From assembly GCA_030523345.1 (NCBI GenBank), contig JAUNIR010000019.1, forward strand, positions 1-32,094: 32,094 bases of DNA, written 5' to 3'. Below, piece after piece: positions 20,487 through 32,094 of this stretch. Numbering within the stretch: position 1 is the stretch's first letter; every line of letters starts with the position of its first letter. Position numbers and translations under genes: made by a program. The notes beneath the pieces are model-generated. The model made no database searches, had not been told where the DNA came from, and was given only the letters and a program-made list of their open reading frames with translations. This DNA is from Lachnospiraceae bacterium (GTDB taxonomy: Bacteria; Bacillota; Clostridia; Lachnospirales; Lachnospiraceae).

Positions 20487-21266
20487 TTAACCGTTCACCT
20501 GTCCAACTCTTGTTACTGCTGTCTCAAGAGTAGAATCAATTGCCTGAATCATTTTCTGGTTTGTTTCATAGGCTCTGGTGAAGTTAATAAGATCAACCAT
20601 TTCCTGTACAACCTGAACATTTGAATCTTCAAGATATCCTGAGATTACCTGGGCTTCGGCCGGTTTTTCCGTTGCCCCCTCTAATGGTGTTAAATAATTC
20701 TCTCCGTATTTTTCAAGGAAATCATAGTTGTCGAAGTCAGTCACCTGAATCTGGGCTTGTGCCTGATCATTTAAATATACAGTTCCAAATCTATCAACCC
20801 TAAACTGGGCCATTGGATCAAGAACTATATGATTTCCTCCTTTATCAAGTAAGAAATCTCCATTCTTATTTACAAGTTCGCCCTTTACATTCAATGTAAA
20901 GTGTCCATCTCTTGTATATTTTACAGATGATTCTCCATTTTTATTTGTGAACTCTACTGCGAAAAATCCGTTTCCAGAAAGTGCCATGTCGAAAGTGTTG
21001 CCGGTCTCATGAATTGGGCCTTGTGAATAATCGGTGTAAACTTCACCGATTTTCACTCCCATATTCATAGCGCCAAGCTTTTTTGTTACGCCAGGCTCAG
21101 ATGTGTCATTAATTTTGTAGGCAAGTACATCATAGAAGGCTTCAGATGTGGATCCTTCCTTTTTATAGCCAGTTGTGGCTGAATTTGCCATGTTGTTTGC
21201 CAGTATGTCAACTCGCCTCTGTTCGTTGAGCATACCCCAGTTTGCTGTGTAAAGTCCCTTAACCAT
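20487..21266 (-). CDS. Flagellar basal-body rod protein, FlgF/FlhO type
   Basis: This 259-residue protein is a second, shorter member of the rod/hook family: N-terminal ANNMANSATTGYK motif, a central variable domain, and C-terminal NVQVVQEMVDLINFTRAYETNQ. The paired order with a FlgG-type gene just downstream and mbl upstream matches flhO-flhP in Bacillus subtilis. It forms part of the rod crossing the peptidoglycan. CAGGAGAA precedes the ATG. The 112-base gap to mbl contains an inverted repeat rather than an obvious motility (sigma-D) promoter, so expression may depend on mbl read-through. Confidence 0.92.
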   Translation of the reverse strand: MVKGLYTANWGMLNEQRRVDILANNMANSATTGYKKEGSTSEAFYDVLAYKINDTSEPGVTKKLGAMNMGVKIGEVYTDYSQGPIHETGNTFDMALSGNGFFAVEFTNKNGESSVKYTRDGHFTLNVKGELVNKNGDFLLDKGGNHIVLDPMAQFRVDRFGTVYLNDQAQAQIQVTDFDNYDFLEKYGENYLTPLEGATEKPAEAQVISGYLEDSNVQVVQEMVDLINFTRAYETNQKMIQAIDSTLETAVTRVGQVNG

Positions 21267-21306
21267 ATTTCTCCTGTTCTAACTGAGTCCCTAATTCAGT
21301 AAAACC

Positions 21307-21362
21307 CGGTCTATTAAATCTTTTCCATATAGATGTAAAAAGTTCCCGCATCTAATAGACCG
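21307..21362 (-). repeat. Inverted repeat between mbl and flhO-type gene
   Basis: Arms of 13 bases (cggtctattaaat and atctaatagaccg on the plus strand) pair with a single G-U mismatch position, enclosing about 30 bases that contain a smaller AGATG/CATCT hairpin. On the minus strand GGGTTTTAC follows, a weak T-run. It could be a leaky terminator that sets the ratio of Mbl to rod proteins, or an RNA-processing site. Confidence 0.55.
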
Positions 21363-21378
21363 CTCTCATAGTCAAAAA

Positions 21379-22380
21379 CTACTCGATGTCATCTTCATCG
21401 TATCCAGAGAGGAATTCAACATACTTACCTGTTCCGATAGCAACCGCTGTCATTGGATCCTCTGCTGTCATAGTATTGATACCCATCTTATATGCTATTA
21501 AGTCTTCAAGTCCTCTAAGAAGACTTCCACCACCTGTAAGTACAATACCTCTGTCAGCAATGTCTGCTGCAAGCTCAGGTGGAGTTCTCTCAAGCACGCT
21601 ATGGATAGCTTCTACTATCTGAGATGTTGTTTCTCTTAAAGCTTCTTCTGTTTCTTCACTAGATACCTTAACAGTTCTAGGAAGACCTGTAACGAGGTTA
21701 CGTCCTCTTACTTCAAGATAATCAATCTCTGGTCTCTTAAATGCTGTACCAATTTTTATCTTAAGCTCTTCTGCTGTTCTTTCACCAATAAGCAGATTGT
21801 GCTTTTTTCTCATGTATCTGACAATAGCTTCATCGAAGTCATCACCAGCAATCTTGATAGATGTTGATACAACCGCACCGCCAAGAGAAATAACTGCTAT
21901 ATCTGTAGTACCACCACCGATATCTACAATCATATTACCCTGAGGTCTAGTAATATCAATTCCTGCACCAATTGCTGCTGCTATAGGCTCTTCAATGATT
22001 TCAACAAATCTTGCACCAGCCTGATATGTAGCATCTTCAACCGCCTTCTTTTCAACTTCTGTAACACCAGATGGTACACATACGCTGATACGAGGCTTTC
22101 TGAAGCTCTTCTTACCTATAGCCTTCTGAATGAAGTACTTAAGCATCTTCTCAGTAACTGTATAGTCTGAAATAACACCCTGTCTAAGTGGTCTTACAGC
22201 TACAATATTACCTGGTGTTCTACCAAGCATAAGTCTTGCTTCTTCGCCTATTGCCTTTATTTTATTTGTGTCTCTGTCAAAAGCAACTACTGAAGGCTCT
22301 TTCAGCACAACACCCTTACCTCTGACATATACGAGAATACTCGCTGTTCCTAAATCTATTCCAATGTCGGTATAAGCCAT
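21379..22380 (-). CDS. mbl: Rod-shape determining actin homologue, Mbl/MreB family
   Basis: This 333-residue cytoplasmic filament protein of the bacterial actin family guides lateral wall synthesis. Actin-fold motifs are clear: phosphate-1 GIDLGTASILVY at 7-18, the EEPIAAAIGAG region near 140, phosphate-2 DIGGGTTDIAV near 165-175, and the adenosine motif GIVLTGGGSLLRG near 285. Placement before flhO-flhP-type rod genes matches mbl of Bacillus subtilis rather than mreB of the mreBCD cluster; the sequence alone does not separate them. It is the first gene of its operon, with TTAGGAGA as ribosome site and its own promoter. Confidence 0.93.
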   Translation of the reverse strand: MAYTDIGIDLGTASILVYVRGKGVVLKEPSVVAFDRDTNKIKAIGEEARLMLGRTPGNIVAVRPLRQGVISDYTVTEKMLKYFIQKAIGKKSFRKPRISVCVPSGVTEVEKKAVEDATYQAGARFVEIIEEPIAAAIGAGIDITRPQGNMIVDIGGGTTDIAVISLGGAVVSTSIKIAGDDFDEAIVRYMRKKHNLLIGERTAEELKIKIGTAFKRPEIDYLEVRGRNLVTGLPRTVKVSSEETEEALRETTSQIVEAIHSVLERTPPELAADIADRGIVLTGGGSLLRGLEDLIAYKMGINTMTAEDPMTAVAIGTGKYVEFLSGYDEDDIE

Positions 22381-22416
22381 AACTATTGTCTCCTAAAATA
22401 ATCCCTTATCTTACTC

Positions 22417-22453
22417 AAGCAGGCGCTCCTGCTTTATGCCCACTCCTAGGCAT
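22417..22453 (-). other. Two hairpins in the mbl leader RNA
   Basis: On the minus strand the leader between promoter and mbl holds two adjacent stem-loops. The first is ATGCC/GGCAT at 22436-22453, close to the predicted 5' end. The second is a 7-base-pair GC-rich stem AAGCAGG/CCTGCTT with a 4-base loop at 22417-22434. No T-run follows either, so they are not terminators. They could stabilise the 5' end of the long transcript or be a protein-binding site. Confidence 0.55.
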
Positions 22454-22467
22454 AAACATACAGATAT

Positions 22468-22496
22468 AGTATACCTCAATGTGATAGACTTTTCAA
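22468..22496 (-). promoter_or_regulatory. Sigma-A-type promoter of the mbl operon
   Basis: On the minus strand TTGAAA (22491-22496) is separated by exactly 17 bases from TATACT (22468-22473). The predicted start is near 22461, giving a leader of about 80 bases with two hairpins. It lies between the uvrA terminator and mbl and is the only good promoter I see for the long cluster down to glmM. Confidence 0.8.
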
Positions 22497-22527
22497 TTTG
22501 AATTCGTTCATATACATCTGAATTCGT

Positions 22528-22588
22528 AAAAAAACACAGAGACATATGAAAGCGACAAGTCCTTTTGTCATTTTCATACGCCTCCGTG
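22528..22588 (-). terminator. Long intrinsic terminator after uvrA
   Basis: On the minus strand the segment from CACGGAG to CTCTGTG folds into a hairpin of more than 20 base pairs with a few G-U pairs and one mismatch near the apex, and is followed by seven T residues (22528-22534). It lies 45 bases past the uvrA stop and separates the repair operon from the mbl operon. Confidence 0.88.
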
Positions 22589-22633
22589 CTACATTATATA
22601 TCGGATTTGTAACGTAAAACTTTATACTTTTTA

Positions 22634-25477
22634 TTATTTATTCAAATATTTTTTTACATACTGTCCAGTATATGATTTCGGATTCTCTGCCACTTCTTCT
22701 GGGGTCCCCGTTGCTATAACAGTTCCTCCTCCTTCACCACCTTCTGGTCCCATATCTATAATATAATCCGCCGTCTTGATTACATCCAGGTTGTGTTCAA
22801 TAACTACTACCGTATTTCCACCTTCTTTTAGTCTTGCAAGAATGTCCACTAGCTTATGTACATCCGCAAAATGAAGTCCTGTTGTAGGTTCATCAAGAAC
22901 ATATATTGTTCTTCCTGTGCTTCTCTTTGACAATTCCGTAGCAAGCTTAATTCTCTGAGCTTCTCCTCCTGAAAGCTGCGTAGAAGGTTGGCCAAGTCTT
23001 ATATAGCCAAGACCAACTTCATTAAGTGTTTCAATCTTTCTCTTAATTGAAGGAATATTTTCGAAAAATTTGCAGGCTTCTTCAACTGTCATATTGAGAA
23101 CATCATAGATGCTCTTTCCCTTGTATTTTACATCTAGAGTCTCACGATTGTATCTCTTTCCATGGCATACCTCACAAGGAACATAAACATCTGGAAGGAA
23201 ATGCATTTCTATTTTAATAATTCCATCTCCAGAGCACGCTTCGCATCGTCCACCCTTAACATTAAAACTAAACCTTCCCTTAGCATACCCCTTTTCCTTT
23301 GCGTCCTGAGTAGATGCAAAAAGATCCCTTATAAGGTCAAACACTCCTGTGTAGGTCGCTGGATTAGACCTTGGTGTACGACCAATAGGCGACTGGTCAA
23401 TGCAAATAATTTTATCTAAATTTTCAGTTCCTTCTATACCGTCATGTTTCCCTGCAATAACTCTTGCTCTATTAAGCGTTCTCGCAAGTGACTTATGGAG
23501 TATTTCATTGACAAGTGATGATTTACCGCTACCAGATACTCCCGTTACACATGTCATTACGCCAAGTGGTACCTTAACATTTATATTCTTAAGATTATTT
23601 TCTCTGGCCCCCTTAACGGTAAGATATCCTGTAGGCTTCTTTCTCTTATCTGGTACTGGGATTTTAAGTTTCCCAGAAAGATACTGACCCGTTATGGACT
23701 CTTTACACTTCATTATATCCTTTGCAGTTCCAGCAGCCACAATTTCACCGCCGTGTTCTCCAGCTTTAGGACCTATATCTACAAGAAAATCTGCCTCAAG
23801 CATTGTATCTTCGTCATGCTCTACTACTATAAGTGTGTTTCCTAAATCTCTAAGATTTTTAAGGGCTCCAAGGAGTTTGTCATTGTCCCTTTGGTGTAAT
23901 CCTATACTTGGCTCATCCAAAATATATGCTACTCCTACAAGTCCCGAGCCAATCTGCGTCGCGAGTCTTATTCTCTGAGCCTCACCGCCAGACAACGAAC
24001 CTGTTGCTCTTGATAAAGTAAGATAGTCAAGCCCTACTTCTACAAGGAATGAAAGACGAGCGTTTATTTCTTTCAGTATCACCTTACCAATTAATTTTTG
24101 CTGTTCAGTAAGGTTTAGTTCTTCCATAAACTTCTTAAGATTTACTACAGAAAGGGAAGTTAACTCATGAATATTCCTTTCACCTACCGTTACAGCTAAC
24201 GCTGATGGTTTAAGTCTCTGTCCTCCACATTCAGCACATGGAGAAAATCTCATATAAGTTTCATATTCAGCTTTTGATGACTCGGAGAACGTTTCTTTAT
24301 AGCGTCTCTCAACATTCTTAATAAGTCCTTCAAAAGGAACATCATATACGCCTTCTCCACGCATTCCCTTATATTTGACTTTAAGAACCCTTCCATCTGT
24401 CCCATTTATTAATACATGGTGCATGTTATCAGGGAACTTATCAATTGGGGTATTAAATATATCGAATTTATATGCTTCTCCTATACTTTTTAAAACAGCG
24501 TAAGAAAAACTTGATGTATCCTTGCACGACTGCCATCCCATAACGGCAATGGCACCTTCGGCAATAGTCAAACTTTTGTCTGGAATCATTAATTCTTCAT
24601 CAAATTCCATCTTATATCCAAGTCCCGCACACACAGGGCAAGCTCCAAAAGGGTTATTGAATGAAAAACTTCTTGGCTCTATTTCATCAATACTTATTCC
24701 ACAATCTGGGCACGCAAAGCTCTGCGAAAAAGTCATCATCTCAGCCCCAACAACATCTACATATACAAGGTTTTCCGAAAGATCCATTACATTTTCTATT
24801 GAATCAGTAAGTCTTTTTTCAATGCCTGGTTTGACTATAAGTCTATCTACTATTACTTCTATATTGTGCTTTATGTTTTTATCTAATGTGATTTCTTCTG
24901 ATAGATCATACTGATTACCGTCCACTCTTACTCTGGCATAACCAGATTTTTTGGCACGTTCTAAAACCTTTTCATGCATTCCCTTTCTTCCACGCACTAC
25001 TGGTGCAAGAAGCATAAATTTCGTGCCCTCAGGAAGTGCCATAATAGCATCTACCATCTGGTCCACAGTTTGCTTTTCAATTTCTCTTCCACACTGTGGA
25101 CAATGTGGTGTACCAATTCTTGCGAAGAGGAGTCGGAAGTAATCATAGATTTCTGTTACTGTGCCGACCGTTGATCTAGGATTTCTATTCGTCGATTTCT
25201 GGTCTATAGATATTGCAGGTGGAAGGCCCTCTATCTTCTCTACCTCAGGCTTTTCCATCTGTCCCAAAAATTGCCTAGCATAAGACGACAGAGACTCCAT
25301 ATAGCGTCTCTGTCCTTCTGCATAAATCGTATCAAATGCCAACGATGACTTTCCAGAACCCGATAATCCTGTTAGTACAACAAACTGGTTTCTTGGAATA
25401 TCAATCGATATATCTTTTAGGTTGTGCTCTTTGGCACCTCTGATTCTAATAAAATCAGTTACTTTCTTTTCACTCAA
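22634..25477 (-). CDS. uvrA: Excinuclease ABC subunit A
   Basis: This 947-residue ATPase recognises bulky DNA damage with UvrB. Two ABC modules are visible: first Walker [10 protein letters not shown] near 37-45 and second GVSGSGKSS near 643-651, with two LSGGEAQRI signatures and two LDEP Walker B motifs. The Zn-binding Cys pairs are present in the first half (CPQCGRE, CPDCG with CPVCAG) and second half (CEACSGDG with CEVCHG). The start is TTG at 25475-25477, supported by GGTGA 7 bases upstream and [14 protein letters not shown] as a normal UvrA N-terminus; no ATG lies near. Two bases separate it from the AlgJ-like stop, so translation is probably coupled. Confidence 0.97.
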
Positions 25478-25479
25478 TT

Positions 25480-27006
25480 CTATTCACCATATGTTATTGT
25501 AAATGTCTCTACAACAAACTGCTCTCCACTCGTCTCATCCACAGCTATAACTTGCATTTCACATGGAGCCAAATATCTTCTCTGGACATCAATTTCGAAA
25601 TACTTTTTATTGTCTTCTACTGATTCTTTGTGAAGATTATCATAATCAAGCTCCAAATAATTACCATCTATTAGGAGATATAAGTCAAGATCCTTTGTTT
25701 TTTCATAGTTATGAATATAACCAGCCATCGATACAATACTTGCGCCATCTTCTGGATTTATTTTTAGTATATTTCCATCTCGTAAAGCCCCGGTAACTCT
25801 CGTGATAGAATACTCCAAATCGGCAGGCTTTGAAATTTCTTTTAAACCATTTTCAGAAACCTGGTTATATGATTTTTCATAATAATAATCCCCAAGTTCA
25901 GTCGATAGTGGCATTTCCCCAGTAATGCTTCTCTCTGCAGTCTCAAAAATAACCGCATCAGGGAATAGTAAATTCACAATATACTGAAGATATCTATAAT
26001 TCTGTCTATGAATATAATAGACTTCGGTAAATCTATTAGTATAGAACTTAGAATATGTTGCGAAATAGCTATCTGTGAATATGACAAGCCTCTTGCCATT
26101 AGTCACTTCAGGATTCATATAATGAGCATAGAATGTAGGAACTTCAAGTTTAATTCCCGTAGCAAGGTATGCACCTGCATCCTGTGATGTATCAGAAATA
26201 AGCGTATATACTGGCACGTCATCATCAATAGGAAAATCCGACTGATCTAGATTTGTTCTCTTTTCGAATCCAAGAGAATAATCTGCTTCTGATAGTGGCC
26301 TCACATCATCAAACCACTGTTGAACATGATCATCTAGCAGCTTTTGACCAATCATGGATCCATATTCGTTCCAATGAGTCGCATCATATTTTTTGTTATA
26401 TACAACAAGATTTTCTTTAGCCTTCAATAATTCATTATATGGAATGACATACTCTATTTCAGAATTCGCAAGTCTAGAGCTCATATACTCTATTACACTC
26501 GTCTCATCCTCCTTAACATGCACCGATTTAGGAAAATGCTCTGGATATATAGACTTTTTATCAGGCGCAAGAAAATATAAAAACTTAATATCTCTGCTCT
26601 TAAGATAGTCATTCGTCTTCTCTAAATAATTAACTAAAGAATCCATGTACTCAGGATTTGTGTTAAGCTTTTGGTATGCGGCAACATAATCCTTATCCTT
26701 GTAATAAATATGTCCGTCCTCTCCATACATAAATAAAGGATGTACCATAACATGGAAAATATCGTCAGAAAGCTTTGTATATTCATATATTGCAGCTGAT
26801 CTGAAGCCTATTCTGTCATCAACATAGTCTTCTATTGTACGAATTGTCTCCGTATCCATAGAAAAACCAGGCCATTCGGTCAGTGTTTTATTATCGATAT
26901 CTGAAGACTTATACTGTTCGTGGTCCATTAATACCGTAGGAACGATTAGTAGAACCATAAATATCAGTATAAATATTAAGTTGTATACGATTCTTGATTT
27001 TTTCAT
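25480..27006 (-). CDS. AlgJ/AlgX-like SGNH O-acetylation protein
   Basis: This 508-residue protein has a single N-terminal membrane helix (about 7-26) and an extracytoplasmic SGNH-hydrolase-like domain of the AlgX/AlgJ (DHHW) type. Candidate catalytic residues are Ser313 in [10 protein letters not shown], and Asp208 with His211 in [10 protein letters not shown]. The spacing is D-x-x-H rather than the D-x-H of AlgX and the DHHW motif. The C-terminal 130 residues form a further beta-rich part. Such proteins work with MBOAT proteins to place acyl groups on exported glycans; the MBOAT gene is directly upstream, with 3 bases between. The ATG has no ribosome site, so coupling is likely. The acceptor polymer is unknown. 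Confidence 0.82.
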
Positions 27007-27009
27007 ATT

Positions 27010-28488
27010 TTAAAAACGGAAATAAATAAATGGATTATATGTAGAATTAACAATAAACATAAAACTCAATGCTAAAAGTAATATTAAAATAACTCTCTTA
27101 ATAGTTTCTAAAACTATCTCAGGGCATGTATTGAATACTTTTACTAACACGTTATTTTCATTCTTTGTAGCAAAACTATTAAAATATTCTTTCCATGGAA
27201 GGCATGCCAAAACAGAAATAACAAATATAAATACTACCTTGCGATCTAAATAAAAACCTGGAGCAAATGCTGTATAATCCGTTCTCTTTATTAAAAACAT
27301 TACAGATAAATACTCAAGAGCTGGTGGTATTTCTTCGAGCTTGAATATAACAAATCCTATAAAAATCACAAGCATCGTATATGCCCATCCGATAAATCCC
27401 GGAACTTTAACGTTTTTAAACTTTCCCTTAAGAAATCTCTCTAAAAGGACAAAGAGCCCGTGCCATATTCCCCACACTAGATATCCCCATGCCGCTCCGT
27501 GCCATATTCCAGTTGTAAGGAATACAACAAAAAGATTGAAATAAACATTTCCTTTTCTATTACCACCAAGTGGAATATACACATAGTCCTTAAACCATGT
27601 TGAAAGAGATATGTGCCAACGTCTCCAATGTTCTCCAATTGACTTTGCTATATAAGGATAATTAAAGTTCTCCATAAATTCAAAGCCGAACATTTTTCCA
27701 AGACCTATTGCCATGTCTGAATATCCTGAAAAGTCAAAATATATCTGAATTGTGAAGAATACGATTCCAATCCATGCAACCTTTGCTCCGATGTAATTTA
27801 CATCAGCATTAAAAATCTTATCCGCGATTTCACCAAGAGAATTAGCCAATATAACTTTCTTCGCAAGACCAACAATAAATCTCTCTATGCCTTGAGAAAA
27901 TTTATCAAAACTTGTTTTTCTATCCTTAAGATAATCCTTAATGTCACCATATCTTACGATAGGTCCTGCTATAAGCTGTGGAAACATCGAAATGTAAAGA
28001 GCTAGATTGATAGGATTCTTCTGAACAAGGTCATATCTTGTCCCATCGTCCTTAAGCATATAGTCTTGTCTATATACATCAATTACGTAGCTCATTCCCT
28101 GGAAAGTAAAGAATGAAATACCTATTGGAAGAGCTATTTCAGGAACAACAATATTTTCATTAAACAAGTCCCTAGCTGTGCTCACAAGAAGAACAAAGTA
28201 TTTAAAATAAATCAAGAGACCAATGTTGAACACAACTGTTACAGCCAACACAATTTTCTTTAATGATATATTCTCTTTTACAGCTGAGTAATGGATAACA
28301 ATACCAAATAGATAATTACCTACAATAGATGCAAGCATTAAATAGATGTACTTAGGTTCTCCCCAAGCATAGAAAAATAAGCTTCCTAATAGCAAAAAGA
28401 TATTTCTGCATTTTTTAGGAAGCACATAATATCCAATAATCATTATTGGAAGAAATATACATAAAAATATAAGTGAACTAAATACCAT
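27010..28488 (-). CDS. MBOAT family membrane O-acyltransferase (AlgI-like)
   Basis: This 492-residue polytopic membrane protein has many hydrophobic helices and the AlgI/DltB family landmarks: GISFFTFQGMSYVIDVYR near 123-140, GPIVRYGDI near 175, the HWRRWHISLSTWFKDYVYIP block at 287-306, and the conserved GIWHGAAW with candidate catalytic His330, followed by His343 in GIWHGL. The known reaction is transfer of an acyl group, usually acetyl, across the membrane to an extracytoplasmic acceptor. Its start overlaps the stop of the glycosyltransferase gene by one base (TAATG), and the AlgJ-like partner follows after 3 bases, so the three genes are tightly coupled. Confidence 0.92.
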   Translation of the reverse strand: MVFSSLIFLCIFLPIMIIGYYVLPKKCRNIFLLLGSLFFYAWGEPKYIYLMLASIVGNYLFGIVIHYSAVKENISLKKIVLAVTVVFNIGLLIYFKYFVLLVSTARDLFNENIVVPEIALPIGISFFTFQGMSYVIDVYRQDYMLKDDGTRYDLVQKNPINLALYISMFPQLIAGPIVRYGDIKDYLKDRKTSFDKFSQGIERFIVGLAKKVILANSLGEIADKIFNADVNYIGAKVAWIGIVFFTIQIYFDFSGYSDMAIGLGKMFGFEFMENFNYPYIAKSIGEHWRRWHISLSTWFKDYVYIPLGGNRKGNVYFNLFVVFLTTGIWHGAAWGYLVWGIWHGLFVLLERFLKGKFKNVKVPGFIGWAYTMLVIFIGFVIFKLEEIPPALEYLSVMFLIKRTDYTAFAPGFYLDRKVVFIFVISVLACLPWKEYFNSFATKNENNVLVKVFNTCPEIVLETIKRVILILLLALSFMFIVNSTYNPFIYFRF

Positions 28489-29243
28489 TACTTATTATCA
28501 CATTCCTGCATTTTTTCTACAGACCATTTGCTTACTGGAACTGGCTTCTTGACAGAAGCTCTCTTCATTAAATTAAACACCTGCTTTAAATATTCCATTG
28601 TAACTTTACCTGAAAGCTTCGATTCACCGGCTTCTCTGTCCTGGAATGTATATGGAATCTCGATAATTGAACCATACTTACACATGGCAAGAACCTCAAC
28701 CATGATTTTCCATCCTATAGGCTGTAAATCAGCTCCTTCAAGACATTCTCTTCTAAACATGAAGAGTCCGCTCGTAGGATCTGTAACTCTTCTTAAACAA
28801 GGAAGACAAATTTTTCCAATATATCTAGCTACTCCTGATACAAATTTTCTGTATAAATTAAGTCCTCCATCACTACCACCTGGAATAAATCTAGACGGGA
28901 TGCAGAAATCATACCCTTCTTCCAAAGCGTAATACATATATTTAAGAATTTTAGGTGGATGCTGCAAATCTGCATCCATACATGCAACATAATCCCCTTC
29001 TGCGAGAGTAAATCCCTTGAGGACTGCTGTAGCAAGTCCTGTCTCACCCACTCTATGTTCGAGTCTTACATGCGGCTTTTTCTCAATAATTTCACGGATA
29101 ACATCTGGGGTATTATCCTTACTATCATCTACAAAAATAATTTCATGGTCAATTCCTACTAGTGCCTCATCGAGCTGGTCAACTAATGGTTTGACATTTT
29201 CTGATTCATTAAAGCTTGGTACAACTATTGATAACTTGCTCAT
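28488..29243 (-). CDS. Family 2 glycosyltransferase, polyprenyl-phosphate type
   Basis: This 251-residue enzyme is of the dolichol-phosphate-mannose-synthase-like GT2 group. It has the N-terminal SIVVPSFNESENV, a nucleotide-binding FVDDSKDNT (38-46), the metal-binding DAD motif at 90-92 with QHPP after it, and TDPTSGLFMFRRE near 155. It lacks the C-terminal membrane helices of some homologues, so it is probably peripheral on the inner leaflet, loading a sugar onto a lipid phosphate carrier. I chose the ATG at 29241-29243, with AGGAG 8 bases upstream; the frame is open 11 codons further, into the end of uvrB. It starts 13 bases after uvrB and overlaps the MBOAT start. Confidence 0.87.
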   Translation of the reverse strand: MSKLSIVVPSFNESENVKPLVDQLDEALVGIDHEIIFVDDSKDNTPDVIREIIEKKPHVRLEHRVGETGLATAVLKGFTLAEGDYVACMDADLQHPPKILKYMYYALEEGYDFCIPSRFIPGGSDGGLNLYRKFVSGVARYIGKICLPCLRRVTDPTSGLFMFRRECLEGADLQPIGWKIMVEVLAMCKYGSIIEIPYTFQDREAGESKLSGKVTMEYLKQVFNLMKRASVKKPVPVSKWSVEKMQECDNK

Positions 29244-29256
29244 TTTAATACTCCTT

Positions 29257-31242
29257 TTATTTATTAAAAGATTCAAACCGAACTCTTAATTCTTTAAGTT
29301 TATCCCTGTATTCCGCTGCAGATTCAAAATCAAGTTCTGCCGCTGCTTTTCGCATTTGCTTTTCAACAGCCTTAATGAGTTTTTCTAGCTCATTTCTGCT
29401 CATTGATTCAGGATCCTTCTCAAATCGTAATTCTTCTTCTGCGATTTTCTTTGAAATGCTAATTGTATCTCTTACTGCCTTCTTGATTGTCTGTGGCGTA
29501 ATTCCATTAGCCTCATTATACTCCTCTTGAATCTTACGCCTTCTTTCAGTCTCTGAAATCGCATTTTTCATCGAATCCGTCATCACGTCAGCATACATAA
29601 TAACATGACCATCCGAATTTCTAGCTGCTCTTCCTATTGTCTGAATTAGAGATGTCTCTGAACGAAGGAACCCTTCTTTATCTGCATCAAGAATTGCTAC
29701 TAATGATATTTCTGGAATATCTAGTCCTTCCCTTAAAAGGTTTATTCCTACTAACACGTCGAAAACGTCAAGACGCATATCTCTAATAATCTGCGCTCTT
29801 TCAAGAGTGTCTATATCGCTATGTAAGTATTTAACCCTTATTCCTACTTCCTTCATGTATGAGGTTAGGTCCTCAGCCATGCGCTTTGTAAGAGTGGTAA
29901 CTAATACCTTATTATGATTAGAGGTTTCCTTTCTTATCTCAGAAATAAGATCATCTATTTGCCCTTCTGTAGGCTTTACTGTAATTTCTGGGTCTAAAAG
30001 ACCTGTAGGTCTAATAATCTGTTCCACCCTCTCAAGTTCATGAGCCTCCTCATAGTCTGAAGGGGTAGCGGAAACGAACATCATCTGGTCTATTTTACCC
30101 TCAAACTCACCAAAGTTCAAGGGACGATTATCCTTGGCTGATGGCAGTCTAAATCCATAATCTACTAATGACTGCTTACGCGCCTGGTCTCCGTTATACA
30201 TACCTCGTACTTGAGGTATTGTAATATGAGACTCGTCAATTATTATTAAATAATCATCAGGGAAATAATTCATTAATGTGTACGGTGTACCTCCCGGTTC
30301 TCCCCCGTACAAATGTCTTGAGTAGTTTTCAATTCCAGAACACATACCCGTTTCTTTAAGCATTTCAATGTCGAATCTGGTTCTTTCCTCTATTCTCTGT
30401 GCTTCTAAAAGCTTATTCTCACTCTTAAAATATTTAACTCTCTCCACAAGTTCTTCTTCAATAGTAACAGCTGCCCTTTCTATCATATCCTTTGGAAGTA
30501 CATAATGAGATGCTGGAAATACCGACAAATGTGTAAGTTCTGCTTTCTTATTTCCAGTAAGAGGATCTATCTCTGTAATCCTATCTATCTCGTCTCCAAA
30601 AAATTCTATTCTAACAGCCCTGTCTGACTCCCACGCCGGAAACACTTCTATGATATCTCCAAGAACTCTGAACTTTCCTCGTCCGAAATCCATCTGATTT
30701 CGCTCATAATTAATGTCAATAAGTTCCCTTATAACATCATCTCTGTCTTTGAGCTGCCCCGGTCTTAACGATACAATCATGTTAATGTAATCAGAAGGTG
30801 ATCCTATACCATAAATACACGATACTGAAGCAATTACAATCACGTCATTTCTCTCTGCTAACGATGCAGTAGCCGATAAACGAAGTTTATCTATTTCGTC
30901 ATTGATAGAAGAATCCTTCTCTATGTATGTATCTGTTGCAGCTACATATGCCTCCGGTTGGTAATAATCATAATAACTGACAAAAAATTCTACAGCATTC
31001 TCAGGAAAGAACTCCTTAAATTCTGAATACAACTGTCCTGCAAGTGTCTTATTATGAGAAATTATCAGAGTGGGTTTATTTAATGCTGCTATTACATTAG
31101 CCATCGTAAAAGTCTTACCAGAACCCGTAACCCCTTGTAAAGTCATGAATTGGTTGCCTTCTTTGAACCCTTTTACTAGCTTCTCAATAGCCTGTGGCTG
31201 ATCGCCTGTTGGTTTATAATCCGAATGTAATTTAAACTCCAT
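29257..31242 (-). CDS. uvrB: Excinuclease ABC subunit B
   Basis: This 661-residue damage-verification helicase of nucleotide excision repair has Walker A GVTGSGKT (37-44), the beta-hairpin [12 protein letters not shown] near 89-100, helicase motifs including IIDESH and TIGRAARN, and a C-terminal UVR domain (about 622-657) that contacts UvrC. Length is normal. The ATG has AAGG close upstream, with GAGG slightly further. It is the first gene of its operon and lies about 245 bases downstream of a LexA-type box, so SOS induction is expected. uvrA is the last gene of the same run, four genes downstream. Confidence 0.97.
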
Positions 31243-31286
31243 AGTGCCTTGGTGACCTCATAATAAAAACGTCCTATTCGCCAAAA

Positions 31287-31347
31287 ATTCGTAACGTGCA
31301 TTTTCAGCTTTTTAACAAAAAAAATCATTTTAGCTTATTTTACGAAT
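31287..31347 (-). repeat. Inverted repeat in the uvrB leader
   Basis: Perfect 8-base arms (ATTCGTAA and TTACGAAT) enclose about 45 bases, and on the minus strand the second arm runs into TTTTTGG. It lies in the roughly 200-base leader between the predicted start and uvrB. The stem is short for its loop, so an attenuator or protein site is only a suggestion. Confidence 0.35.
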
Positions 31348-31449
31348 CCAACTCACCTAATCCTATTTTCCCGACTAGATGATACACAATAATATTACTC
31401 GTAAAAGCCAGACATATCGATCAAAATATACCTTATAGACTATCATATT

Positions 31450-31478
31450 ATCTTACCACGTTAGTATATTAATGTCCA
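31450..31478 (-). promoter_or_regulatory. Candidate promoter of the uvrB-uvrA operon
   Basis: On the minus strand TGGACA (31473-31478) is followed after 17 bases by TAAGAT (31450-31455). Each hexamer deviates slightly from consensus, but the spacing is exact and a LexA-type box ends 8 bases upstream of the -35. The predicted leader is about 200 bases. The rest of the gap between the relic and uvrB (31243-31449) contains one inverted repeat and no gene that I can see. Confidence 0.55.
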
Positions 31479-31486
31479 CAATAATT

Positions 31487-31500
31487 AGAACTTATGTTCG
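31487..31500 (-). promoter_or_regulatory. LexA (SOS) box upstream of uvrB
   Basis: On the minus strand the site reads CGAACATAAGTTCT, with a perfect GAAC-N4-GTTC core. It matches 12 of 14 positions of the symmetrical Gram-positive LexA/DinR site CGAACATATGTTCG. It abuts the -35 of the best promoter and precedes uvrB, a classical SOS gene, which makes a chance match unlikely. Confidence 0.78.
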
Positions 31501-31511
31501 ATTTTCAACAA

Positions 31512-31548
31512 TAAAAATAAGGCTGATATATCCTTACATCAGCCTTAT
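31512..31548 (-). terminator. Intrinsic terminator after the integrase relic
   Basis: A perfect 11-base-pair stem (ATAAGGCTGAT with ATCAGCCTTAT, 31517-31548) with a 10-base loop is followed on the minus strand by TTTTATTG. It begins 4 bases past the stop of the recombinase fragment and insulates the uvrB promoter from upstream transcription. Confidence 0.82.
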
Positions 31549-31552
31549 CTAT

Positions 31553-31936
31553 TTATGATGCTTTTATATCTTTAAGAAAATCTGATGTATCCACAACAAT
31601 ATCGGTCACATCTTCTTTCTCTATATCTGGAACCACATCTTCAATGAATTCAGCCAATTCTACAGTACAGTCTGTTATCAGCTCCTGACTATCCCCATAT
31701 ACATCGACTGTTATGATTTCTTCCGAATGTCCCATGAGTTTTGATACTGCCTTTGAGCTAAAATCATTTTTAAGTAGCAATGTTGTATAAGATGCTCTTA
31801 AGTCATGCCACCTAACATCTGGCAGGTCATTATCTCTTAACAATTTTTTGAAATATTTATAGTGAAAATCCTTACTCCTTGAATTGCCATAGGTAGAGCA
31901 ACATATGTATCCTTGATCTGAATTCAACATAATCAT
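31553..31936 (-). pseudogene. Tyrosine recombinase (integrase), C-terminal fragment
   Basis: The readable 127 residues correspond only to the C-terminal half of a phage-type integrase catalytic domain. Visible landmarks are HDLR (the H-x-x-R box), LMGHS (the second His box) and DVYGD with the likely nucleophile Tyr. The N-terminal arm and core DNA-binding domains and the first catalytic Arg are missing. An in-frame stop lies one codon upstream of the first Met, and no ribosome site precedes it. A full-length integrase is about 350-400 residues. It retains its terminator but follows another terminator directly with no promoter seen, so it is probably a decaying relic of an integrated element. 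A small expressed protein cannot be excluded. Confidence 0.75.
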
Positions 31937-31962
31937 AATTTACTTGGCTCATCGTGTATAAC

Positions 31963-31988
31963 AAAAGAAGGAGCCTACTGGCTCCTTC
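31963..31988 (-). terminator. Strong intrinsic terminator after the GH31-like tail
   Basis: A perfect 9-base-pair GC-rich stem (GAAGGAGCC with GGCTCCTTC, 31967-31988) with a 4-base loop is followed on the minus strand by TTTTGTT. It starts directly after the stop codon of the upstream partial gene. Confidence 0.88.
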
Positions 31989-31989
31989 C

Positions 31990-32094
31990 TCATAATCTTA
32001 TAACCTGCTTTTCACCATTGTATGATAATTCTTTTTTTATGCCGTTATGTTTTATAATGAAGGTTCTCTCATTTAGCATACCTTCAAATTTACC
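31990..32094 (-). CDS. C-terminal tail of a probable GH31 glycosidase (partial)
   Basis: The frame is open from the window edge to a TGA at 31990-31992, giving the last 34 residues of a protein. The stretch GKFEGMLNERTFIIKH resembles the C-terminal beta domain (DUF5110) of family 31 glycosidases such as alpha-glucosidase and alpha-xylosidase, where a G-x-F/Y-x-G-M-x-x-x-R-x-F pattern recurs. A following terminator supports it being a true gene end. The catalytic domain lies outside the window, so the family call rests on a short segment and is tentative. Confidence 0.5.
   Translation of the reverse strand, partial: GKFEGMLNERTFIIKHNGIKKELSYNGEKQVIRL

Follow-up and report, generated by a model that had tools for sequence, protein, structure and literature searches.

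The 32,094 nucleotides (nt) of contig JAUNIR010000019.1 analysed here, referred to below as the window, carry a run of five genes in which the repair genes uvrB and uvrA enclose a module of three others: a GT2 glycosyltransferase, an O-acyltransferase of the MBOAT family and its SGNH partner (Table 1). The junctions are tight. The 13 nt between uvrB and GT2 hold a ribosome site (AGGAG), GT2 and MBOAT overlap in the sequence TAATG (a gap of -1 nt), and the SGNH partner and uvrA start 3 and 2 nt after the preceding stop. The five genes most likely form one operon. Ahead of uvrB we predict a LexA box and promoter, above which lies the remnant of a tyrosine recombinase gene. A first-pass annotation of this DNA had proposed that DNA damage would induce glycosylation and acylation of a surface or exported polymer together with repair; its gene coordinates, its four gaps and its LexA box all held on recheck.

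Table 1. Features of the operon and its leader in the window
Feature	Positions	Strand	Basis or remark
Tyrosine recombinase, C-terminal remnant (127 amino acids, aa), taken as element right end	31553..31936	minus	PF00589
Terminator-like hairpin behind the integrase remnant	31515..31550	minus	motif scan
Predicted LexA box CGAACATAAGTTCT	31487..31500	minus	exact GAACN4GTTC; matrix 16.5
Sigma-70-like promoter TGGACA-17-TAAGAT	31450..31478	minus	8 nt below the LexA box
Inverted repeat ATTCGTAA...TTACGAAT in uvrB leader	31287..31347	minus	sequence; alignment of five loci
uvrB	31242-29257	minus	TIGR00631, 1053 bits, above NCBIfam equivalog cut-off
uvrB codons 87-91 FVSYY, equivalent of the relatives' insertion site	30970..30984	minus	comparison with relatives
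GT2, dolichyl/polyprenyl-phosphate-mannose-synthase-like (start ATG)	29243-28488	minus	PF00535
MBOAT O-acyltransferase, C-terminal FIYFRF	28488-27010	minus	PF03062
AlgX/AlgJ/PatB1-like SGNH partner	27006-25480	minus	PF16822, 28.1 bits
uvrA (start TTG)	25477-22634	minus	TIGR00630, 1454 bits, above NCBIfam equivalog cut-off

The module belongs to the genus. Our genus sample comprised 37 genomes, 35 of them with a uvrB locus, and GT2 follows uvrB in all 35, with gaps of -4 to 112 nt where the sizes rest on start codons picked by script. MBOAT comes next in 34 of the 35; in the exception, G002, 4.7 kb of other genes stand between GT2 and MBOAT (L089, 3386-7897). Among the 32 loci with enough sequence, the SGNH partner follows MBOAT directly in 29, and uvrA lies within 100 nt of the partner in 23 and at 1.0 and 3.8 kb in two. 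Outside the genus the module is absent: none of the 32 loci from the family's other genera has it, and none of the 22 from the order's other families. The comparison of uvrB-uvrA spacing across relatives that the first-pass annotation had called for found the repair genes mostly adjacent outside the genus (uvrA within 500 nt of uvrB in 27/32 and 11/22 loci, respectively). The genomes of Coprococcus comes and Tyzzerella sp. RGIG2081, to whose UvrB the window UvrB is 75-76% identical, read uvrB-uvrA-mreB without the module (L224, L225). Within the genus, the median pairwise protein identity is 81.0 for UvrB, 78.6 for UvrA, 77.6 for GT2, 61.4 for MBOAT and 52.1 for the SGNH partner, while the genes above uvrB are seldom common to several species (G009/G032 is one of the pairs that have them in common). 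Judged from the genus-wide spread and these identities, the insertion is old and has been kept as a fixed gene run while the upstream genes changed. The idea of an insertion confined to a single strain, which the first-pass annotation had held open, is ruled out by the 35 genomes.

Some loci show additional genes. The extra 4.7 kb of G002 include a second AlgX-type gene (PF16822, 68 bits). In G017 a gene for an S1-domain protein stands behind MBOAT, and G013 and G003 have similar-looking genes there; G004 has an epimerase-like gene and two glycosyltransferase genes between uvrA and mreB. Downstream of the window operon, mreB has its own promoter-like sequence (TTGAAA-17-TATACT) and is followed by flgF- and flgG-type genes, an FlgJ-like gene and a recD2-type gene. 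Rfam gave 0 matches within 21000-32094.

The module could instead have a promoter of its own, in which case its place beside uvrB and uvrA would be historical and SOS read-through negligible. On the minus strand there are promoter-like matches inside uvrB (30120, 29813) and GT2 (29152, 28690), and the arrangement persists in congeners with unrelated sequence above uvrB. However, promoter-like motifs in 21800-32094 do not exceed shuffled sequence (33 vs 37.7), nor do terminator-like motifs in the same region (5 vs 4.6). At this level the counts neither show nor exclude an internal promoter. The short gaps and stop-start overlaps of many congeners suggest translational coupling. We regard an independent promoter as unlikely, though of the alternatives it deserves the most serious attention.

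Predicted LexA control within and beyond the genus

The LexA box in the window, CGAACATAAGTTCT, holds the sole exact GAACN4GTTC of that stretch. There are 14 such places in the 2.84-Mb assembly; matrix scoring covered these 14, and scores of at least 15 were found only before lexA, before uvrB, on contig C211 and near a gene start on contig C157. Our LexA matrix was built from 150 sites in the upstream regions of lexA and recA of the genus, with 30 loci fetched for each; lexA was above cut-off in 32/37 genus genomes and recA in 33/37. At a threshold of 12.5, shuffled sequence yields 0.016 hits per kb. Sites of at least 12.5 bits precede lexA in 30/30 and recA in 30/30 fetched loci, which also supplied the sites of the matrix; when recA sites are its only source, the matrix still recovers 29/30 lexA loci and gives the window site 15.4 in place of 16.5. 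The layout of box, 8 nt, -35, 17 nt and -10 is repeated in G025 and G031 (TGGACA-17-TACACT), in G008 (TAGACA-17-TATACT) and at an orphan uvrB fragment of G010. The predicted box and promoter layout in the window are convincing. They also have a precedent: in the available excerpt of PMC4234289, LexA of Clostridioides difficile binds the uvrBA promoter, with a GAACN4GTTC site before uvrB. Our window likewise has a uvrB-uvrA operon with such a site; unlike the C. difficile operon described there, the genus has three glycan genes between the repair genes, and most of its loci have no site before uvrB.

In the genus, only 6/31 loci have a LexA box in the 350 nt next to uvrB (G000, which is the window genome, G034, G008, G025, G031 and, weakly, G029), against 23/30 module-free loci of other genera of the family (Fisher p = 9e-6); in other families it was 11/21. 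The 31 loci were those with a usable uvrB start, G007, G015, G020 and G022 falling outside; G031, with an N run inside uvrB, was counted from its 5' piece, and G034 offers only 262 nt above uvrB. From the 32 family loci, G119 and G226 were set aside with less than 100 nt above uvrB. The G029 box scores 13.6, and 12.3 by the recA-only matrix, below the 5th-percentile threshold of that matrix (13.6), which would make the count 5/31. In G035, uvrA stands 3.8 kb off with a separate LexA box at -89, and GT2 and MBOAT remain with uvrB.

On these numbers, uvrB(A) itself seems to have been under SOS control from an earlier time, with no box to be seen in most congeners, and the simplest reading is that it belongs to uvrB/uvrA and that the module came under it by insertion. 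A deliberate response, in which cells would acylate a wall glycan upon DNA damage, would be in keeping with the standard layout of box and promoter before the operon, with the tight junctions, and with four further genus members that have a strong box and one that has a weak one. Nevertheless, uvrB lacks a box in 25/31 genus loci, so that boxes are significantly rarer than in the module-free relatives, and in G035 the LexA box goes with uvrA on separation, not with the module. Such a dedicated response is improbable in our view, and by this comparison LexA control of an envelope response is not conserved. What stands of the co-regulation proposed by the first-pass annotation is thus that the window genome has closely packed genes behind a credible LexA promoter, with a credible acylation module among them; the dedicated envelope response is not supported. 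In the literature, we found no open-licence paper joining uvrB-uvrA, MBOAT or O-acetylation, and LexA/SOS control.

Predicted functions of the embedded genes

The best solved relative of GT2 is the dolichol monophosphate mannose synthase 5mlz (E 1.8e-60, residues 3-228 of 251 aligned), and the motif DADLQHPP, a DxD motif, is present in 35/35 genus proteins. By domain, motif and this match, GT2 is predicted to be a DPM1-like polyprenyl-phosphate hexose synthase that transfers a hexose. Compared with 5mlz it has no membrane part: its 251 aa contain no strongly hydrophobic segment.

For MBOAT, the PF03062 score is 116 bits (cut-off 27). The protein has two WHG motifs, and the conserved histidine motif WHG occurs in 33/33 complete genus proteins, all of which end in FIYF[RQ]F (FIYFRF in 28, FIYFQF in 5). 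The available excerpt of PMC12148441 describes PatA as forming an acetyl-tyrosine on an FXYXXF acyl shuttle. Since FIYF[RQ]F fits the FXYXXF definition, we read the MBOAT tail as a putative acyl-tyrosine shuttle. We also considered DltB as an identity and rejected it, the DltB equivalog TIGR04091 scoring 150 bits, below its cut-off of 375. The window genome has 13 PF03062 match rows in its 2.84 Mb, so that its MBOATs look expanded; the 12 rows besides the window MBOAT include one split gene and one broken frame.

The PF16822 ALGX score of the SGNH partner barely exceeds the cut-off of 26.5, and the protein has an N-terminal hydrophobic segment and about 130 additional aa at the C-terminus. THWN and DS[YF] are conserved in 29/29 proteins and D208 is invariant, although the D-A-T-H spacing is unusual. 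A profile of 7 SGNH sequences matches Bacillus cereus PatB1 (E 1.4e-5) and an AlgJ structure (E ~1e-5). The DHHW family motifs TDHHW and KDS are not found; the partner reads YDATHWN and TDSY instead. By profile it resembles DHHW proteins such as PatB1, but we do not file it in the DHHW family. PatB1 is an O-acetyltransferase of the secondary cell-wall polysaccharide (available excerpt of PMC9487903), and another MBOAT/DHHW pair is treated in the excerpt of a paper on clostridial cellulose (PMC7710045). To judge from the excerpts of these three papers, the known pairs PatA/PatB, AlgJ/AlgX, PatA1/PatB1 and CcsH/CcsI appear to share with ours the adjacency of an MBOAT and an anchored SGNH protein, the FXYXXF tail, and the His-Trp and Asp-Ser motifs. 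Unlike them, our pair sits inside a repair operon together with a DPM-like GT2, has DATHWN and TDSY in place of TDHHW and KDS, and carries the additional C-terminal part.

Taken together, a role of the module as an envelope glycan acylation system is credible. Outside the genus, the best-scoring MBOAT relative (L001, 55%) lies 3 nt behind a LytR-CpsA-Psr (LCP ligase) gene, with a UDP-galactopyranose mutase gene close to the pair, and starch-type sugar genes follow the MBOAT-SGNH pair of another relative (L002). Our best guess for the acceptor is a wall-linked polysaccharide. At a further locus (L007, 2690-3688), a spore photoproduct lyase gene, a neighbour from UV repair, lies about 2 kb above an MBOAT-SGNH pair, perhaps by coincidence.

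Probable sequence exchange at the 5' end of uvrB

The integrase remnant above the window promoter has counterparts. Integrase relatives lie directly above uvrB in G017, G148, G219 and G262 (L083, L299, L282, L294), and the five genomes with this order come from two families, one of them represented by three or more genera. The integrase is shortened in the window, G148 and G219, and partial in G262, near the contig start. A LexA box is found at -258 in the window, -265 in G148 and -259 in G262; in G017 it is absent, and in G219 there is only a weak site (11.1 at -367). Arms like ATTCGTAA...TTACGAAT can be made out by eye in the other loci of the five-locus alignment. Apparently, the LexA promoter of the window forms the right end of what is left of an integrative element. 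Scanning viral contigs with the integrase remnant and searching phage records with the 852-nt leader gave 0 matches each.

Relatives point to the place where such elements would enter. The insertion point there is FVSY|YDYY at uvrB codon ~90, with the promoter and some 90 codons replaced. Six orphan uvrB 5' fragments in five genomes run to FVSY(Y) and then pass into foreign sequence: G010 has two (L215, 8906-16482), G035 (L210) and G015 (L211) one each, and so, outside the genus, do G063 (L217) and G148 (L299). Fragments of G034, G002, G036, G062 and G064 end earlier and were kept out of this count. In G010 the two fragments and the whole uvrB form a tandem array with a spacing of 3.7-3.9 kb. 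The intervening genes include those for an AAA/DUF4143 ATPase, a RhuM-Fic protein and an Mrr-type nuclease; no recombinase gene was seen between its two copies. In G148 both ends are visible: 81/84 nt of uvrB are repeated at L299 1-84 and from 4543, GTGAACGARATTCGTCGARA is common to both ends, and between them lie an ATPase/nuclease, the shortened integrase, a nucleotidyltransferase and a LexA box. Two marks of an integrative element are present at these loci, a duplicated target segment in G148 and a nearby integrase, 425 aa long in G017. Among the matches listed for 246 genomes sampled from the order, at least 7 genomes match the 5' end of uvrB more than once.

uvrB itself is chimeric in the genus. 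The pairwise identities of codons ~12-86 correlate with those of the rest of the gene at 0.30 (28 genomes, 378 pairs, without G018, G011, G033 and the G015 orphan, where the anchor TGDQP reads CGDQP), against 0.65-0.85 for 11 equal-sized control windows in the rest of uvrB. G024 and G026, for example, share 90.7% at the 5' end vs 71.7% in the rest; for G036 and G021 it is 81.3% vs 95.5%. This low correlation suggests that the uvrB promoter and first ~90 codons are swapped together, as a unit.

Other observations on these loci are varied. The cargo beside orphan fragments includes ATPases, RhuM-Fic and an Mrr-type nuclease and, by eye, small DUF4258/YgiT-like genes. L221 (G028:C99) carries a second uvrB of which only codons 88-653 are visible, cut off by the contig end at the insertion site. 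In G062 (L220, 6422-11019) and G063 (L217) a block of three genes, by eye a Gfo/Idh oxidoreductase, a YeiH-type transporter and a LysR regulator, is repeated, with a uvrB fragment on one side and a longer copy or fragment of uvrB on the other. We rejected gene turnover above uvrB as proof of an element: few genes are shared there, and three of those checked with Pfam (PFOR, FeoB and an alkyl sulfatase) have everyday roles in metabolism or transport. An element origin is thus not shown for every changed promoter, and we counted as element loci only those with an orphan fragment or an integrase.

Proposed mechanism and its meaning

Based on these findings, we propose that the genus has a fixed operon with an envelope-acylation module, which in the window genome would be LexA-induced as a side effect, through a promoter left by an element remnant; we give this reading a probability of roughly 0.55. 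The inserted genes would form a membrane machine for acylating a glycan of the envelope, in which GT2 would load a hexose onto polyprenyl phosphate and the anchored SGNH protein would take the acyl group on Ser313 and hand it to a wall-attached polysaccharide. Given the predicted LexA-controlled promoter, expression of the module in the window genome should rise along with that of uvrB and uvrA upon DNA damage. This induction is probably a side effect of sharing uvrB's transcript and not the reason for the module's location, since the module persists in most congeners with no box to be seen. With respect to the first-pass annotation, the observation was right and is stronger than claimed, the module being fixed in the genus and an integrase remnant lying above the box, but the interpretation was only half right.

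Several points weigh against our proposal. No SGNH partner was detected behind MBOAT in G017, G013 and G003 (L083, L084, L085), and uvrA was not within fetched reach in 7/32 genus loci; the full arrangement is thus not required. With 12 further PF03062 rows in the genome, a special role for the window MBOAT is not evident. The SGNH protein taken alone matched no solved structure at E <=1. AlgJ has a D-x-H-W motif, and the partner's D-A-T-H-W is one residue longer. The window LexA box, at -258, is also farther from uvrB than those of four congeners, at -90 to -126. Finally, the integrase in the window survives as a remnant only, and the contig ends 852 nt above uvrB, so that the far end of an element would be out of view. 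That an assembly error or binning artefact joined unrelated contigs can be dismissed: the assembly is fragmented (258 contigs), but GT2 follows uvrB in 35 independent assemblies, contigs of 446 and 279 kb among them.

More tentatively, and with a probability that we place clearly below that of the proposal above, a family of elements may attach at uvrB codon ~90, each bringing a new promoter, sometimes LexA-controlled, and the first ~90 codons. Their insertion, stacking and decay would then switch the operon, and with it the module, in and out of the SOS regulon. These elements would resemble known integrative elements that replace the 5' end of their target gene, in that they enter the 5' coding region and replace the promoter and first codons. 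They would differ in their target, uvrB near codon 90, in a supplied promoter with a LexA box in several cases, and in the G010 copies without a recombinase gene. We found no open-licence paper on integration or insertion at uvrB.

The interest of the locus lies in an acylation module fixed in a repair operon, together with an element-linked turnover of the SOS promoter. With three envelope genes fixed inside the core SOS operon uvrB-uvrA, the genus is a natural experiment on whether gene order by itself can place new functions under DNA-damage control. The probable exchange of the uvrB promoter and ~90 codons, with elements entering there, is a possible reason why SOS control differs between close relatives. 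If this is true, the identity of the resident element would determine how a core repair operon is regulated.

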